Assembly (NCBI GenBank): GCA_023511995.1
Contig: JAIMAL010000001.1
Coordinates: forward strand, 62,001-126,000
Direction: 5' to 3'
Length of the DNA stretch: 64,000 nucleotides
Source of the DNA: Burkholderiales bacterium
GTDB lineage: Bacteria; Pseudomonadota; Gammaproteobacteria; Burkholderiales; Thiobacteraceae
The notes beneath the pieces are model-generated. The model ran no database searches, had not been told where the DNA came from, and saw nothing but the letters and a program-made list of their open reading frames with translations. A program made the translations under genes and the position numbers. Positions 98-6,402 of this stretch are shown here, one piece after another (position 1 is the stretch's first letter; every line of letters starts with the position of its first letter).

Positions 98-2557
98 TCA
101 CTCCATGTGGGCGAGAGGTTGAAATTCATGGGCCTCCCGGCCTTGCGCCCGTTCGGCCCAGGGGTCGCGCTGCGCATGCTGCTGGGAGGCCTGGAAGCGC
201 TCGGCAAGCGCCCGGCGTGATGCCCCATCGTGCACCACCCGTTCCTGGATGTAGTTGAGGCCCACGCGTTCCACCCAGGGTGCGGTGCGTTCCAGGTAGC
301 GGGCTTCCTCGCGGTAGAGCTGGATGAAAGCCGCGCAGTGTTCCAGCACCTCGGCCTCGGTGGCCACCTTGGTGAGGAGATCGGTGATGCGGACCTTGAT
401 GCCGCCGTTGCCCCCCACGTGGAGTTCATAGCCGGATTCCACACACACCACGCCGAAGTCCTTGATGGTCGCTTCGGCGCAGTTGCGGGGACAGCCGGAC
501 ACCGCCATCTTGAACTTGTGGGGCATCCACGAACCCCAGGTGAGTTTTTCCAGCTTAACCCCTAGCCCGGTGGAATCCTGGGTGCCGAAGCGGCACCACT
601 GGCTGCCGACACAGGTTTTCACGGTGCGCAGCGCCTTGCCGTACGCATGACCGGAGACGAAGCCGGCAGCGGCGAGATCGCGCCAGACAGCAGGCAAATC
701 CTCCTTGCGGATGCCGAAGAGGTCGATGCGTTGTCCGCCGGTGATTTTCATCTCCGGCACGCGGTACTTTTCCGCCACGTCGGCGATGGCGCGCAGTTCC
801 TGTGGGGTAACCAGACCACCCCACAGGCGCGGCACCACCGAGAAAGTGCCATCCTTCTGGATATTGCCGTGGGCGCGCTCGTTGATGAAGCGTGACTGGG
901 GATCGTCCCGATATTCCCCCGGCCACGCCGCGAGCAGGTAGTAGTTGAGGGCCGGCCGGCATTTGGCGCAGCCGTCCTCGGTCTTCCAACCCAGAGCGCG
1001 CATCACCGCCGGGATGGATTTCAGACCCTGCTCGACGATGGCGCGCCGCACCTCGTCGTGGCTCACCTCCGTGCAGGGGCAGAGGGGCTTGGCCGAGGGT
1101 TTGGCCGCGTACTCGCCACCCAGGGTGTGGGCGAGCAGGGCCTCCACCAAACCAGTGCACGAACCGCAGGAAGCGGAGGCCTTGGTGTGGGCGCGCACCT
1201 CTTCCAGGGTGTAGAGCTGTTTGTCGCGGATGGCGCGCACGATCTCGCCCTTGCACACCCCATTGCAGCCGCAGATTTCCGCGCCGTCGGGCAGCGCGGC
1301 GACCCGCGCCTTGGGATCGGTGCCGGCATCACCCACGTGGGGGCGGCCGAAGAGCAGGCTCTCTCTCAGCGCTCCGATGTCCGTGCCCTCGCGCAATAGG
1401 TCGAAATACCACGCGCCATCCACGGTGTCGCCATACAGGCAGGCGCCCACCAGCCGGTTGTCGCGCACCACCAGCTTTTTGTAAACGCCACGACCGGCAT
1501 CTTCGAAGAGCAGGGTCTCATCGCCGGCTTCCGGCAGAAAGCGGCCTGCGGAGAAAAGATCGATGCCCGTCACTTTCAGGCGGGTGGCGACAGCCGAGCC
1601 GCCATAGCGGGCGATGCCCCACTCCGCCAGGTGATTGGCGCACACCTTGGCCTGCTCGAAGAGGGGGGCCACCAGGCCATAGGTCACGCCGCGGTGGTTC
1701 ACACACTCCCCCACGGCGTAGATGCGCGGATCGGTGAGCGTCTGCATGGTGTCGTGCACGCGCACGCCCCGCTCCACCATGAGGCCGGCCGCCTGGGCAA
1801 GTTCGGTATCCGGGCGGATACCCACCGCCATCACCACCAGCGTGGCGGGCAACACCTCGCCGTTGGCCAGACGCACACCGCGCACTTCCCCATTCTCCGT
1901 TTCGATGGCCTCTGTCTGGCTGGCCAGGCGGAAGGTGATCCCACGTCCCGCAAGGTGCCGGGCGAGCAGCCCGGCCGCCGGTTCGTCCAGTTGTTTTTCC
2001 ATCAGCCACGGCGCCAGGTGCACCACCGTCACCCGCATGCCGCGCGCCGCCAGACCATTGGCGGCTTCCAGCCCCAACAGGCCACCGCCGATCACCACTG
2101 CCGGCGCCCCGGCACGGGCGCGGGCAAGCATGGCCTCAACGTCGGCGAAGTCACGGAAGGCGACCACACCCGCCGCCTGCGCACCCGGTAGCGGCAGGAT
2201 GATGGGACGCGAACCGGTGGCCAGCACCAAGCGGTCGTAACCCACCACCGAGCCATCGTCGGCGTGCACCTCGCGCCGCCAGCGGTCGATACGGGTGACC
2301 CGCACGCCCTGACGCAGGGTGATGCCGTGGCTTGCGTACCAGTCGGCGGGATGGGTGATGATCTCCTCCGGGGCCTGTTCACCGGCCAGCACCGGCGACA
2401 GCAGGATGCGGTTGTAACCCGGGTGGGGCTCGGCACCGAAAACGGTGATGGCAAAACGGTCGGGCGCAAGGCGCAGGAGTTCTTCCAGAAGGCGGGTGGC
2501 GGCCATGCCATTGCCGACCACCACCAGACGGATGCGGGAGGGAGGGTGCATGTCCAT
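98..2557 (-). CDS. nirB: NADH-dependent assimilatory nitrite reductase large subunit NirB
   Basis: 819 residues, usual length for NirB. It reduces nitrite to ammonium in the cytoplasm with electrons from NADH. Order of domains: N-terminal FAD/NAD(P)-binding fold (VVVGNGMAA near residue 10, second dinucleotide motif VIGGGLLGLEAA near 150), a BFD-like 2Fe-2S region (CGCNGVC and CGSC), a second cysteine cluster (CPC...CAKC), then the sulfite/nitrite reductase repeat with siroheme/4Fe-4S ligands TCVGSQWC and GCPRNC. The start was set at 2557 because AGGAG lies 6 bases upstream; an in-frame extension upstream has no homology. It sits 10 bases after nrtD and 3 bases before nirD in one operon. Confidence 0.95.
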   Translation of the reverse strand: MDMHPPSRIRLVVVGNGMAATRLLEELLRLAPDRFAITVFGAEPHPGYNRILLSPVLAGEQAPEEIITHPADWYASHGITLRQGVRVTRIDRWRREVHADDGSVVGYDRLVLATGSRPIILPLPGAQAAGVVAFRDFADVEAMLARARAGAPAVVIGGGLLGLEAANGLAARGMRVTVVHLAPWLMEKQLDEPAAGLLARHLAGRGITFRLASQTEAIETENGEVRGVRLANGEVLPATLVVMAVGIRPDTELAQAAGLMVERGVRVHDTMQTLTDPRIYAVGECVNHRGVTYGLVAPLFEQAKVCANHLAEWGIARYGGSAVATRLKVTGIDLFSAGRFLPEAGDETLLFEDAGRGVYKKLVVRDNRLVGACLYGDTVDGAWYFDLLREGTDIGALRESLLFGRPHVGDAGTDPKARVAALPDGAEICGCNGVCKGEIVRAIRDKQLYTLEEVRAHTKASASCGSCTGLVEALLAHTLGGEYAAKPSAKPLCPCTEVSHDEVRRAIVEQGLKSIPAVMRALGWKTEDGCAKCRPALNYYLLAAWPGEYRDDPQSRFINERAHGNIQKDGTFSVVPRLWGGLVTPQELRAIADVAEKYRVPEMKITGGQRIDLFGIRKEDLPAVWRDLAAAGFVSGHAYGKALRTVKTCVGSQWCRFGTQDSTGLGVKLEKLTWGSWMPHKFKMAVSGCPRNCAEATIKDFGVVCVESGYELHVGGNGGIKVRITDLLTKVATEAEVLEHCAAFIQLYREEARYLERTAPWVERVGLNYIQERVVHDGASRRALAERFQASQQHAQRDPWAERAQGREAHEFQPLAHME

Positions 2558-2567
2558 GGTGTGCTCC

Positions 2568-3359
2568 TCAGGCGGCCGGCCGCAACTGGCGCTGGTGGAG
2601 GAATTCCAGCACCCGGCGGCGCAGCAGGTGGTAACGGGAATCGTCGGCCAGGGCAAGGCGGGAGCGCGGACGCGGCAAATCCACGGTCAGAATTTCGCCG
2701 ATGGTGGCGGCCGGCCCGTTGGTGAGCATGACGATGCGGTCGGAAAGCAGCACCGCCTCGTCCACGTCGTGGGTCACCATCACCACGGTGACCTGGCGGT
2801 CGGCAACGATGCGCATCAGCTCGTCCTGGAGGGCGGCACGGGTCAGGGCATCGAGGGCGCCGAAGGGCTCGTCGAGGAGCAGCACCGCCGGTTCCATGGC
2901 CAACGCACGGGCAATGCCCACCCGTTGTTTCATGCCGCCCGAGATTTCGTGGGGATAGCGCTCCCGCGCATGGGCAAGCCCCACCAGGGCGATGGCAGCG
3001 TCGGTGCGCTGACGCAGCTTTGCCTTCGTCTCCCGGGCGCCGAACACCTTGTGTACCGCCAGGTACACGTTGCCGAAGACGGTGAGCCAGGGCAGCAGGG
3101 AATGGTTCTGGAACACCACCGCGCGGTCGGGACCGGGGCCGGGAATCTCGCGACCGCTGCAGAGGGCGGCGCCGCTAGTGGGCATGACCAGACCGGCGAT
3201 CACATTGAGCAGGGTGGATTTGCCGCAGCCGGAATGGCCGATGAGGCTCAGGAATTCGCCGCGGCCGATGGCGAGCGTGATGTCCTGCAGGGCAACGAAA
3301 CGCCCGCGGGGTGTATCGAAGGTGACCGAGACGTGGTCGAGCACGACGTGTTTTTCCAT
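2568..3359 (-). CDS. nrtD: Nitrate ABC transporter ATP-binding protein (NrtD/NasD type)
   Basis: 263-residue ABC ATPase energising nitrate/nitrite import. Walker A GHSGCGKST lies near residue 40, Q-loop region VVFQNHSLLPW near 80, signature SGGMKQR near 140, Walker B VLLLDEPFGALDALTR near 160 and the switch histidine in VTHDVDEA. Start at 3359 is supported by GGAG nine bases upstream. It follows the permease with 11 bases between them and precedes nirB. The family also includes SsuB/TauB and CmpD; the nitrate assignment comes from neighbours nrtA, nirB and nasT. Confidence 0.9.
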   Translation of the reverse strand: MEKHVVLDHVSVTFDTPRGRFVALQDITLAIGRGEFLSLIGHSGCGKSTLLNVIAGLVMPTSGAALCSGREIPGPGPDRAVVFQNHSLLPWLTVFGNVYLAVHKVFGARETKAKLRQRTDAAIALVGLAHARERYPHEISGGMKQRVGIARALAMEPAVLLLDEPFGALDALTRAALQDELMRIVADRQVTVVMVTHDVDEAVLLSDRIVMLTNGPAATIGEILTVDLPRPRSRLALADDSRYHLLRRRVLEFLHQRQLRPAA

Positions 3360-3370
3360 GGCGGGTCTCC

Positions 3371-4237
3371 TCATTGGCCGGGGCTGAAACGACGGGCGAC
3401 GAGGAGGATGAGCTGCTCCAGCGCCAAGCCCACGATGCCCACGACGAAGATGGCGATCAGGATGTGTTCCACGTTGAGGTTGTTCCACTCGTCCCACACC
3501 CAGAAGCCGATGCCCACGCCCCCGGTCAGCATTTCGGCGGCGACGATCACCAGCCATGCCACACCCACTGCCAGCCGCACGCCGGTGAGGATGGCGGGGA
3601 GCATGGCCGGCAGAAGAATGCGGGTGATCGTCTGCAGTTCGGAGAAGCCGAGCACCCGCGCGACGTTCAGGTAATCCTGGGGCACCTGGCGGACGCCGAC
3701 TGCGGTGTTGAGGATCATGGGCCAGATGCTGGAGATGAAGATCACCCAGATGGCGGCCGGATGCGCCGCCTTGAATACCAGCAGCCCGATGGGCAGCCAC
3801 GCCAGGGGCGATACCGGGCGCAGCAGGGCGATGATGGGTGCCGCCATGCCGGCGAAGAAGGCAAAACGGCCAATGAGAAAGCCAAGGGGAATGCCCACCG
3901 CCGCCGCCAGGCCGAAGCCGATGCCAACGCGGGAAAGCGAGGAGAGGAGGTTCCAGCCGATGCCCTGGTCGTTGGGACCGCGGTCATAGAAGGGATCGGC
4001 GAAGAGCTGCCGCGCCGCCTCCCAGGTGGCCAGCGGTCCCGGAATGCGGCCGTCGGCGGCGATGGCTGCCCACAGGCCGACGAACAGGGCAAGGCCCAGC
4101 ATCGGCGCGGCAAGGGGGATGAGAAGACGGCGCAGGTGGCCGGCCGCCTGGCGCAAGGCATGGCCACGGCGCTGTGGTGGCAGCGGCAGGACCGGGGCCG
4201 GGCGGTCAAAGGGTTTTGCTGTGGGATAAGGCATCAT
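3371..4237 (-). CDS. nrtB: Nitrate ABC transporter permease (NrtB type)
   Basis: 288-residue inner-membrane permease with about six hydrophobic segments and the BPD_transp_1 core; the EAA-like loop reads around PAMLPAILTGVRLAVGVAWL. The segment GGVGIGFWVWDEWNNLNV is typical of the NrtB/CmpB branch. The start is one of two adjacent ATGs (4237 or 4234); GGAGCCCGCC lies just before 4237. It stands 14 bases after nrtA and 11 before nrtD. Substrate nitrate is inferred from operon context. Confidence 0.9.
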   Translation of the reverse strand: MMPYPTAKPFDRPAPVLPLPPQRRGHALRQAAGHLRRLLIPLAAPMLGLALFVGLWAAIAADGRIPGPLATWEAARQLFADPFYDRGPNDQGIGWNLLSSLSRVGIGFGLAAAVGIPLGFLIGRFAFFAGMAAPIIALLRPVSPLAWLPIGLLVFKAAHPAAIWVIFISSIWPMILNTAVGVRQVPQDYLNVARVLGFSELQTITRILLPAMLPAILTGVRLAVGVAWLVIVAAEMLTGGVGIGFWVWDEWNNLNVEHILIAIFVVGIVGLALEQLILLVARRFSPGQ

Positions 4238-4251
4238 GGCGGGCTCCACGT

Positions 4252-5550
4252 TCAGACCTTGATGGAAAAGCTGTCGGCATAGGCCTGGGGATTTCTGCCA
4301 TCCCAGACCACGCCGTCGATGAGCCGGGAGGTGCGCAGCGGCTCCTTCGGTAGCGCCGTGCGGGTGGCGGTGGCGGCATCGCGGTAGAGGTCGATGCGGT
4401 TGATGGCCCGCGCGGTGGCGAGGTAATCCGGGTGCGCCTTGATGAGGCCCCAGCGTTTGTGCTGGGTGAGGAACCACATGCCGTCCGACAGATAGGGGAA
4501 ATTGACCGCCCCCTCGTCGTAGAACTTCATGAAATGGGGGTCCTGCCACTTGCGCCCGATGCCGTTGTCGTACTGGCCCAGCATGCGGCCTTCGATGGAA
4601 GCAACATCGGTGTTGACGAACGACTTGGCGGCGATGATCTGCGCCACTTCCCGGCGGTTGGCCGGGGTGTCGATGTAGCGGGACGCCTCCAGCACAGCGC
4701 TGACCAGGGCGCGGGCGGTGTTCGGGTATTTTTCGACGAACTCGGCGGTGGTGCCCAACACCTTCTCCGGATGCTCCGGCCAGATGTCCTGGCTGGTCGC
4801 GGCGGTGAAGCCCACCCCATCGTGGATGGCGCGCGCATTCCAGGGCTCGCCCACGCAGTAGCCATCCATATTGCCCACCCGCATGTTGGCGATCATCTGC
4901 GGCGGCGGCACGGTGATCACCTTGACGTCGCTGAAGGGATGCACGCCATGGGCGGCCAGCCAGTAATACAGCCACATGGCATGGGTGCCGGTGGGGAAGG
5001 TCTGGGCGAAGGTGTACTCCCGGTTTTTCGTCCGCACCAATCTGGCGAGTCTGGCGCCGTCGGTGACCCCCTGGCCTTGCAATTGCCGGGAAAGGGTGAT
5101 GGCCTGACCGTTGCGGTTGAGGGTCATGAGCACGGCCATGTCCTTCTTCGGCCCGCCGATGCCGAGGTGCACGCCATAGACCAGGCCATAGAGGACGTGC
5201 GCGGCGGAAAGCTCGCCATTGATTAGCTTGTCGCGGACCGCCGCCCAGGAGGCTTCCTTGCTGGGGACGATGCGGATGCCGTATTTCGCGTCGAAACCTT
5301 TGACGGAGGCGATGACCACGCTGGCACAGTCGGTCAAGGGAATGAAGCCCACCTTGACCTCGCGCAATTCCGGCGCATCCGATCCCGCCGCCCAGGCCGC
5401 ATGGCGCACTGCGGGCGGTACCAGCCCCATCAGGGTGGCGGCGGCAGACAAGCCTGTGTTTTTGAGGAAGCGCCGGCGGTGCGGGTCACGGGGTGCGGTG
5501 TGCCTTCCGCTGCGCCTTGGGCGTGGGCTTGTGCGGTTTGACGACTCCAT
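4252..5550 (-). CDS. nrtA: Nitrate-binding periplasmic protein NrtA, Tat-exported
   Basis: 432-residue substrate-binding protein of the NrtA/CmpA family. The N-terminus carries a twin-arginine signal (HRRRFLKNTGLSAAATLMG near residue 25) ending near AAWAAG, so export is by Tat. The body has the family segments VKVGFIPLTDCA, GNMDGYCVGEPWNARAI and DGVVWDGRNP. Start at 5550 is supported by GGAG eight bases upstream, directly after an attenuator hairpin. First structural gene of the nrtABD-nirBD operon. NasS, the cytosolic sensor that pairs with NasT, is a relative, but the signal peptide here argues for a transporter component. Confidence 0.93.
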   Translation of the reverse strand: MESSNRTSPRPRRSGRHTAPRDPHRRRFLKNTGLSAAATLMGLVPPAVRHAAWAAGSDAPELREVKVGFIPLTDCASVVIASVKGFDAKYGIRIVPSKEASWAAVRDKLINGELSAAHVLYGLVYGVHLGIGGPKKDMAVLMTLNRNGQAITLSRQLQGQGVTDGARLARLVRTKNREYTFAQTFPTGTHAMWLYYWLAAHGVHPFSDVKVITVPPPQMIANMRVGNMDGYCVGEPWNARAIHDGVGFTAATSQDIWPEHPEKVLGTTAEFVEKYPNTARALVSAVLEASRYIDTPANRREVAQIIAAKSFVNTDVASIEGRMLGQYDNGIGRKWQDPHFMKFYDEGAVNFPYLSDGMWFLTQHKRWGLIKAHPDYLATARAINRIDLYRDAATATRTALPKEPLRTSRLIDGVVWDGRNPQAYADSFSIKV

Positions 5551-5561
5551 GGGTGTGCTCC

Positions 5562-5600
5562 AAAACAAAACGGCGTCCCCCTTCGCGGGGTGGACGCCGT
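5562..5600 (-). terminator. Leader attenuator terminator before nrtA
   Basis: On the minus strand ACGGCGTCC (5600-5592) pairs perfectly with GGACGCCGT (5578-5570), extended by a short C/G inner helix, and is followed at once by TTTTGTTTTG. This is a textbook intrinsic terminator, yet it lies inside the 5' leader, ending only about 12 bases before the nrtA start. It would stop transcription of the whole nitrate operon unless it is prevented from forming. Its 5' arm is shared with the upstream hairpin at 5592-5605. Confidence 0.88.
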
Positions 5601-5605
5601 TGTCC
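5592..5605 (-). promoter_or_regulatory. ANTAR-target hairpin P2 (hexaloop AACGGC), overlaps terminator
   Basis: Reads GGAC-AACGGC-GTCC on the transcribed strand: a 4-bp stem closing a six-base loop with A at position 1 and G at position 4, the signature recognised by ANTAR RNA-binding domains. The loop and 3' arm (5600-5592) are also the 5' arm of the terminator, so the two structures exclude each other. Binding by NasT would be expected to favour this hairpin and allow read-through. Confidence 0.72.
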
Positions 5606-5626
5606 CTGAAAAACGTTCCGATCTTC

Positions 5627-5652
5627 GAGCCGGCACGCCATTGCACCGGCTC
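5627..5652 (-). promoter_or_regulatory. ANTAR-target hairpin P1 (hexaloop AATGGC)
   Basis: The transcribed strand has GAGCCGGTGC and GTGCCGGCTC flanking a six-base loop AATGGC: seven Watson-Crick pairs, then U-G, G-U and C-G pairs. Loop positions 1 (A) and 4 (G) match the ANTAR target consensus and the loop differs from that of P2 in one base. Given the sigma-54 promoter at 5665-5680, this hairpin would form the extreme 5' end of the transcript. Confidence 0.75.
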
Positions 5653-5664
5653 GCTTTCACGTCA

Positions 5665-5680
5665 AGCAATCCACGTGCCA
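5665..5680 (-). promoter_or_regulatory. Sigma-54 promoter of the nrtABD-nirBD operon
   Basis: The minus strand reads TGGCACGTGGATTGCT, matching TGGCACG-N4-TTGCW at every defined position, with exactly ten bases between the -24 GG and the -12 GC. The predicted transcript start is near 5654, immediately before hairpin P1. Two NtrC-like sites lie about 86 and 117 bases upstream. Confidence 0.85.
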
Positions 5681-5732
5681 GGGCGCCTTGAGCGCAAAAC
5701 TGCATCCCTCAAGGCATTGCGCCGCAGGCCGT

Positions 5733-5747
5733 GCCCGCCCAAGGTGC
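5733..5747 (-). promoter_or_regulatory. Possible second, weaker NtrC site
   Basis: Minus strand GCACC-N5-CGGGC: one perfect NtrC half site and one degenerate half. Its centre is 31 bases, three helical turns, from the perfect site at 5764-5778, which matches the usual tandem spacing of NtrC enhancers. Weak on its own. Confidence 0.45.
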
Positions 5748-5763
5748 AAACGGCGCAAACATC

Positions 5764-5778
5764 GCACCGGCCTGGTGC
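5764..5778 (-). promoter_or_regulatory. NtrC enhancer-like site
   Basis: GCACC-N5-GGTGC, a perfect inverted repeat equal to the NtrC consensus core, centred about 117 bases upstream of the predicted sigma-54 transcript start. It falls between the nasT stop and the nrtA promoter, the expected place for an enhancer. Confidence 0.72.
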
Positions 5779-5781
5779 GCC

Positions 5782-6360
5782 TCAAGTGCGGCGGCTCCGT
5801 TGCAGAAGGCGCCGTGCCGCCTCCGCTTTGGTGATGCCTGCATCCATGGCCAGCCGGCGCAGGCGGGCATGGGCTTCACTCTCGCTCAACCCCTCCTGCA
5901 TCAGCAGACGTTTGGCCGCATCCACCGCCTCCCGCCCGGCGAGTCGTTGCTTTGTCGCCTCGAGTTCCGCATGCAGGTTGCGCAGGGATTCGTGGCGCAC
6001 GCGCGCCGCTTCCAGGATGGGCAACAGCCGCTCGGGGGCAAGGCCCGCGACCACATAGGCGGCCACGCCGGCGCGCACCGCGCGGCGCAGTTTGCCCACG
6101 TCCGGGTCTTCCGTGAACACCACCATGGGGCGGGGCAGCGCCGTGCCGAAGAGGCAGATGCTCTCCAGGGTGTCCCTTTCCATGGCATCCGCCGCCACCA
6201 TGATCACATCCGGTTGCAGCGCGGAAATGGTGGCTTCCAGACGGAAGAGGGGGCCGTCAAACACCTCCACCCGGCAGCCAATGGCGGCCAGGCAGGAACG
6301 GGCCTCCTCCCAGTAACGGTCGTGGCCGCGCAGGAGCAGAACGGTGATGGGGGATTCCAT
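5782..6360 (-). CDS. nasT: ANTAR-domain antiterminator response regulator NasT
   Basis: 192 residues. The N-terminal two thirds is a receiver-like domain (VLLLRGHDRYW, PDVIMVAADAM, PMVVFTEDPD) and the C-terminal third is a helical ANTAR domain (LAGREAVDAAKRLLMQEGL, then SESEAHARLRRLAMD), which binds hexaloop RNA hairpins. It lies directly upstream of the nitrate operon whose leader carries two such hairpins and a terminator, so it almost certainly controls that operon by antitermination. A sigma-54-like promoter precedes it. The usual nitrate sensor partner NasS is not adjacent. Confidence 0.92.
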   Translation of the reverse strand: MESPITVLLLRGHDRYWEEARSCLAAIGCRVEVFDGPLFRLEATISALQPDVIMVAADAMERDTLESICLFGTALPRPMVVFTEDPDVGKLRRAVRAGVAAYVVAGLAPERLLPILEAARVRHESLRNLHAELEATKQRLAGREAVDAAKRLLMQEGLSESEAHARLRRLAMDAGITKAEAARRLLQRSRRT

Positions 6361-6386: not shown

Positions 6387-6402
6387 TGCAAACGTTGTGC
6401 CA
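6387..6402 (-). promoter_or_regulatory. Sigma-54-like promoter upstream of nasT
   Basis: Minus strand TGGCACAACGTTTGCA: -24 GG and -12 GC separated by ten bases, with TGGCAC and TTGCA both intact. The transcript would start about 15 bases before the nasT ATG. No convincing NtrC site was found further upstream. Confidence 0.68.

Follow-up and report, generated by a model that had tools for sequence, protein, structure and literature searches.

Does the 231-base intergenic region between nasT and nrtA stack two controls on a nitrate assimilation operon, NtrC/sigma-54-dependent initiation and antitermination by the ANTAR protein NasT, and, if so, how does nitrate enter the decision? The region lies in a window of 64,000 nucleotides, the whole stretch of DNA that was analysed, from a 2.5 Mb genome estimated to be 99.98% complete. 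The gene order on the minus strand is nasT, the intergenic leader, nrtA, nrtB, nrtC and nirB, with the operon running past the window edge into the nirD/nasA region, and stretch 5562-5778 is the leader of this nrtABC-nirBD-nasA operon. A sequence-only reading had placed here a pair of NtrC sites, a sigma-54 site, two hairpins with A1/G4 hexaloops and an overlapping terminator, with NasT encoded immediately upstream; all of these elements were recovered exactly where they had been put, and nasT adjoins the leader (Table 1).

Table 1. Features of the nasT-nrtA region and of the downstream operon, numbered from the first letter of the window.
Feature	Position	Strand	Details
Sigma-54 promoter upstream of nasT	6387-6402	-	perfect element, TGGCACAACGTTTGCA; predicted start about 6375
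nasT	5782-6360	-	192 aa; pseudo-receiver, coiled coil and ANTAR domain; Pfam ANTAR 41.8 bits over cut-off
NtrC site	5764-5778	-	GCACC-AGGCC-GGTGC, 0 mismatches; 98 bases upstream of sigma-54 site
Weaker NtrC site	5733-5747	-	GCACCTTGGGCGGGC, 7/8 match; 31 bases from perfect site
Sigma-54 promoter of the operon	5665-5680	-	perfect -24/-12 element, TGGCACGTGGATTGCT; predicted start about 5654
ANTAR hairpin P1	5626-5653	-	11 bp; hexaloop AATGGC (5642-5637), A1 and G4
P1-P2 linker	5606-5625	-	20 nt; unstructured when folded alone
ANTAR hairpin P2	5592-5605	-	4 bp; hexaloop AACGGC (5601-5596), A1 and G4
Intrinsic terminator	5562-5600	-	5' arm is P2 loop and 3' arm; stem about 5600-5570, then TTTTGTTTT, T-run to 5562
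nrtA ribosome-binding site	5561-5558	-	GGAG
nrtA, operon gene 1	4252-5550	-	nitrate-binding protein; PF13379 354.5 bits; PDB 2g29 NrtA, E 3.4e-85
nrtA Tat signal	within 4252-5550	-	RRRFLKNTGLSAAATLMG
nrtB, nrtC, nirB	98-4209	-	remaining operon inside the window

The predicted start from the operon promoter lies about 2-3 bases ahead of P1, and an NtrC/sigma-54 promoter is represented here by a perfect element, by NtrC sites upstream of it and by its two proteins, as the genome holds an intact ntrC (NtrC, 725 bits) and an intact rpoN, coding for the single RpoN. Sigma-54-like and NtrC-like matches are not commoner in the window than in shuffled sequence, and single protein-binding sites are unconvincing when taken alone; the case is carried by position, RNA layout and conservation. 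Strict sigma-54 sites were found in 30 of 63 regions downstream of nasT in the same order, where shuffles lead one to expect 0.05, and perfect NtrC sites stand upstream of the strict site in 10 of these 30 regions (0.5% in shuffles), most of them about 88-108 bases upstream of the sigma-54 site. The second sigma-54 promoter, upstream of nasT, had not been part of the sequence-only reading. Strict sites occur upstream of nasT in 23 of 62 regions of the order, this one included, and no perfect NtrC site was found upstream of the nasT promoter here. Since nasT and the operon both lie behind sigma-54 sites, nitrogen limitation probably raises NasT together with its target, and the circuit is likely, on the arrangement of its sites, a coherent feed-forward loop.

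ANTAR leaders are recognised by two hairpins, each of 3 bp or more and capped by a hexaloop that carries A1 and G4 (PMC3369931), a description that P1 and P2 fit. The hexaloop form of P1 is the minimum-energy fold with an ensemble frequency of 94%, and a tetraloop form, about 3.5 kcal/mol worse, was rejected. P2, which matches the near-invariant GGACAANGGCGTCC of relatives, is weak (-5.4 kcal/mol), the terminator is strong (about -22.8 kcal/mol) and the two are mutually exclusive, so that the RNA should terminate without protein. When the entire antiterminated leader is folded, the linker shows a marginal hairpin. The linkers of relatives form two groups, one of 1-13 nt and one of 20-49 nt that mostly has a spacer hairpin. 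In eut leaders the linkers measure 5-12 nt, unlike the 20 nt found here, and EutV activity is lost with a 14-nt linker (PMC3369931) as well as with a 20-nt linker extension (PMC8934654); by analogy, the nearly unstructured 20-nt linker is a possible weakness. In several relatives (the leaders of L087, L096, L097 and L102 among others) a further hairpin, sometimes with an AANG-type hexaloop, separates P1 from P2. The layout had been called unusually compact, which did not survive comparison: promoter to T-run takes 110 nt here and 104-189 nt in 22 relatives.

A layout scanner requiring P1, P2, overlap and terminator together gave one match among the 1110 chunks into which the 64 kb was divided, located at the leader, and none in 2000 dinucleotide shuffles, and in nasT-adjacent regions of the order it matched 34 of 63 real but 0 of 630 shuffled sequences. 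Covariation was read from an alignment of 14 relatives, the rows of which were confirmed as exact substrings of their loci. The alignment contains 17 both-side changes, compared with 4.7 in shuffles, and 97% of the cells in the two helices are paired, compared with 27-54% when the helices are slid. A covariance model (R1) built from the 14 relatives with the window left out detects the leader with an E value of 1.6e-4. This is the only R1 match in the genome, and NasT therefore probably has one target there. The leader layout is ordinary for this bacterial order, and the leader probably extends a known mechanism to another lineage. Some loci contain R1 matches in addition to the nasT-adjacent one (L088:4107-4199, L095:8249-8347, L127:4496-4597, L099:9274-9358 and L086:9269-9352), which suggests that attenuators recur inside a single operon or close to it.

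The protein belongs to the NasT type, with a receiver-like and an ANTAR domain and its gene beside a nitrate assimilation operon, and is the sole ANTAR match in the genome; a NasT search of genome contigs for related loci returned clostridial ANTAR proteins only. The AlphaFold model (pLDDT 88.9) has its best PDB fold matches in AmiR (1qo0) and EutV, including RNA-bound EutV, and set against the EutV-RNA structure (PMC8934654) NasT keeps the equivalents of Arg142, Lys149, Glu160 and Met172. The closest relatives of this NasT within the order share only about 40% identity with it, and the single genome sampled from the same genus (G050) gave no NasT match.

Among Rfam families the nearest match of the leader is P11 (RF00625), which had likewise been absent from the sequence-only reading. 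As the score of 26.7 bits (E 0.0018) falls short of the 70-bit gathering cut-off, the relation was examined in reverse. Across the class, 229 genomes yielded ten RF00625 matches, each of them immediately upstream of nrtA or nirB, and the ten loci (L130-L139, matches near position 1500-1650) have a sigma-54 site, ANTAR-type hairpins and an overlapping terminator, the second hairpin being of the GGACAA(A/C)GGCGTCC type or a near variant. The NasT-leader model, which is independent, detects 10 of the 10 P11 loci. P11 of Pseudomonas and the leader share the sigma-54 promoter, the hexaloop hairpins, GGACAAnGGCGUCC, the overlapping terminator and the setting upstream of nirB or nrtA, and differ in P1 and linker; both belong to one class of element. 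P11 is known from P. aeruginosa, where it has been described as a small RNA with two roles, regulating nitrogen assimilation and training avoidance in C. elegans. The layout match implies that P11 is a terminated, attenuated NasT leader of the nirB operon, at least in origin. For the nirBD operon of P. aeruginosa, antitermination by NasT was reported in Romeo 2012, as cited in PMC8092218, and NasT goes unmentioned in PMC12080996 and PMC10977744, which present P11 as a small RNA that regulates the nirBD operon. A narK RNA match reached 17 bits. The matches to weev_FSE, MIR2907, Xoo5, iscRS and isrG and those on the plus strand, all below gathering, were rejected as chance, the one to the frameshift element weev_FSE being merely the terminator stem.

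Among characterised systems, NasS-NasT of Paracoccus denitrificans, Azotobacter vinelandii and Pseudomonas has in common with this locus the NasT-type ANTAR protein, the leader hairpins and the downstream nitrate assimilation operon, but here NasS is not detectable, and nasT is on its own next to a Tat-signalled NrtA and is preceded by a sigma-54 site of its own. With the NasR-nasF leader of Klebsiella oxytoca the locus shares ANTAR antitermination at two hairpins ahead of a nitrate operon; the parallel is looser than had been implied, as NasR senses nitrate via its own NIT domain, while NasT is receiver-like in fold and Pfam finds in it the ANTAR domain only, with no NIT domain. The eut leaders with EutV (Enterococcus faecalis) and AmiC-AmiR (P. 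aeruginosa) share the regulator fold and the A1/G4 hexaloops. AmiR is held by a binding-protein-like partner, and EutV is phosphorylated, whereas the receiver-type domain of NasT lacks the aspartate kept by most relatives.

We assign a probability of about 0.82 to the full explanation, in which a leader started by NtrC and sigma-54 polymerase ends by default at its terminator and is carried into nrtA by NasT antitermination. Under nitrogen limitation NtrC-P would activate sigma-54 polymerase at the operon promoter (5680-5665), and the separate site at 6402-6387 probably drives nasT too. The nascent RNA would by default fold into the strong terminator (5600-5570) and transcription would stop. 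An active NasT dimer meeting the hexaloops of P1 and P2 would stabilise P2, and with P2 held, its loop and 3' arm would be unavailable as terminator 5' arm, allowing transcription into nrtA. The sequence-only reading had claimed this combination of NtrC/sigma-54 initiation and ANTAR antitermination, and it is supported by what is observed, namely the DNA and RNA elements in their layout, the mutual exclusivity of P2 and terminator, conservation with compensatory changes and the presence of NasT and of intact ntrC and rpoN, together with the AmiR/EutV-like NasT model. What we infer from it is that NasT binds this RNA, that transcription starts at the predicted position and that the terminator is read through; antitermination by NasT is in itself likely. 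The full explanation also draws on the match of the R1 model, on the ten P11 loci, on the EutV residues that NasT keeps, and on earlier work in Paracoccus (PMC3795266) and on P. aeruginosa nirBD (Romeo 2012). Counting against it are His at the G4-stacking position of NasT and the replacement of EutV Lys143 and Lys147, the long and nearly unstructured linker, the lack of a detectable NasS and the P11 score below the gathering cut-off.

The AND gate that had been proposed is supported in its nitrogen-limitation start and its NasT antitermination. Its nitrate half is left unexplained because no NasS is detectable. In Paracoccus NasS holds NasT inactive, a nasS mutant is constitutive, and nitrate is sensed by NasS and not by NasT of this type alone (PMC3795266). 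Profile searches of the genome detected no cytoplasmic NasS, that is, none without a signal peptide. Four PF13379 NrtA/NasS-family proteins are encoded, all with exported-type N-termini on inspection, and the only close NasS homologue among them is the operon NrtA, 52% identical and Tat-signalled. An internal start of nrtA, at a Met of the h-region of its Tat signal, was considered as a source of cytoplasmic NasS and rejected, no ribosome-binding site being visible by eye ahead of it. In a tally counted by eye over 45 nasT-bearing genomes, this one included, the nasT-adjacent homologue was Tat-signalled and no second close one was found; at seven loci where the NasS next to nasT has no signal, nrtB and nrtC were not found nearby, and two genomes (G112 and G003) contain both NasS and NrtA. 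This gap at the sensing step seems to extend over much of the order. The description as an AND gate requires a nitrate sensor, and most of these genomes lack one as a separate protein, which makes nitrate sensing by NasT a directly testable question.

Three readings of the sensing step exclude one another there and leave antitermination untouched. NasT may have become constitutively active after loss of NasS, the operon then responding to nitrogen limitation only, twice over, through NtrC and through sigma-54 on nasT. The missing cytoplasmic NasS, the constitutive Paracoccus nasS mutant (PMC3795266) and the lost aspartate of the receiver-type domain all point this way; leader and NasT are nevertheless kept, with covariation, across a NasS-poor order, which would be costly for an always-on switch, and we hold this reading as a tentative one. 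That another partner or ligand controls NasT, be it an ortholog diverged beyond recognition or an input to the pseudo-receiver domain, is rather unlikely: no candidate gene adjoins nasT, although the searches reached only as far as their NMT1_2 and NasS profiles allowed and the receiver-like domain is conserved in fold in the predicted structure. A fourth reading reaches antitermination itself, the leader being a relic from whose RNA NasT has drifted away while the operon is read through by leak. It could draw on the linker, which has no clear spacer hairpin, and on the RNA-contacting face of NasT, where His164 occupies the site of EutV Tyr164, the residue that stacks on G4 (PMC8934654) and that is Tyr or Phe in all 31 aligned relatives, and where Glu and Ala replace EutV Lys143 and Lys147, both RNA-contacting. 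AmiR, however, likewise has His at the G4-stacking position, the leader retains both hexaloops, the terminator and the promoter unbroken, and nasT itself is intact and preceded by a consensus promoter of its own, making a relic improbable.

The remaining reading of the sensing step takes the NrtA precursor as nitrate sensor, holding NasT as NasS does and freeing it on nitrate. Tat exports folded proteins, and a folded cytoplasmic NrtA precursor could therefore hold NasT. NrtA occupies the gene slot that NasS has in relatives with a separate sensor, to which it is 52% identical, and the tally of Tat-signalled homologues beside nasT, along with the seven signal-less NasS loci, agrees with such a role, for which AmiC-AmiR offers a precedent of a binding-protein-like partner. 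When NrtB and NrtC are taken into account, NasT and NrtA distances moreover still correlate (partial r 0.33, Mantel 0.002), but the correlation is weak and the NrtC control noisy. No observation speaks directly against this reading. With both proteins present in G112 and G003, and a precursor lifetime that may be too short, we consider this sensor rather unlikely, and slightly less likely still the broader claim that a Tat-targeted, folded NrtA precursor has replaced NasS in the lineage, binding NasT and releasing it on nitrate. If true, one protein would read uptake capacity and sense nitrate before export, and NrtA would be used in this way by the majority of the nasT-bearing genomes that were sampled across the order. 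The fourth binding protein of the genome, of the NMT1_2 family and with a signal-like N-terminus (C13:40171-40836, L005), adjoins a large sensor histidine kinase.
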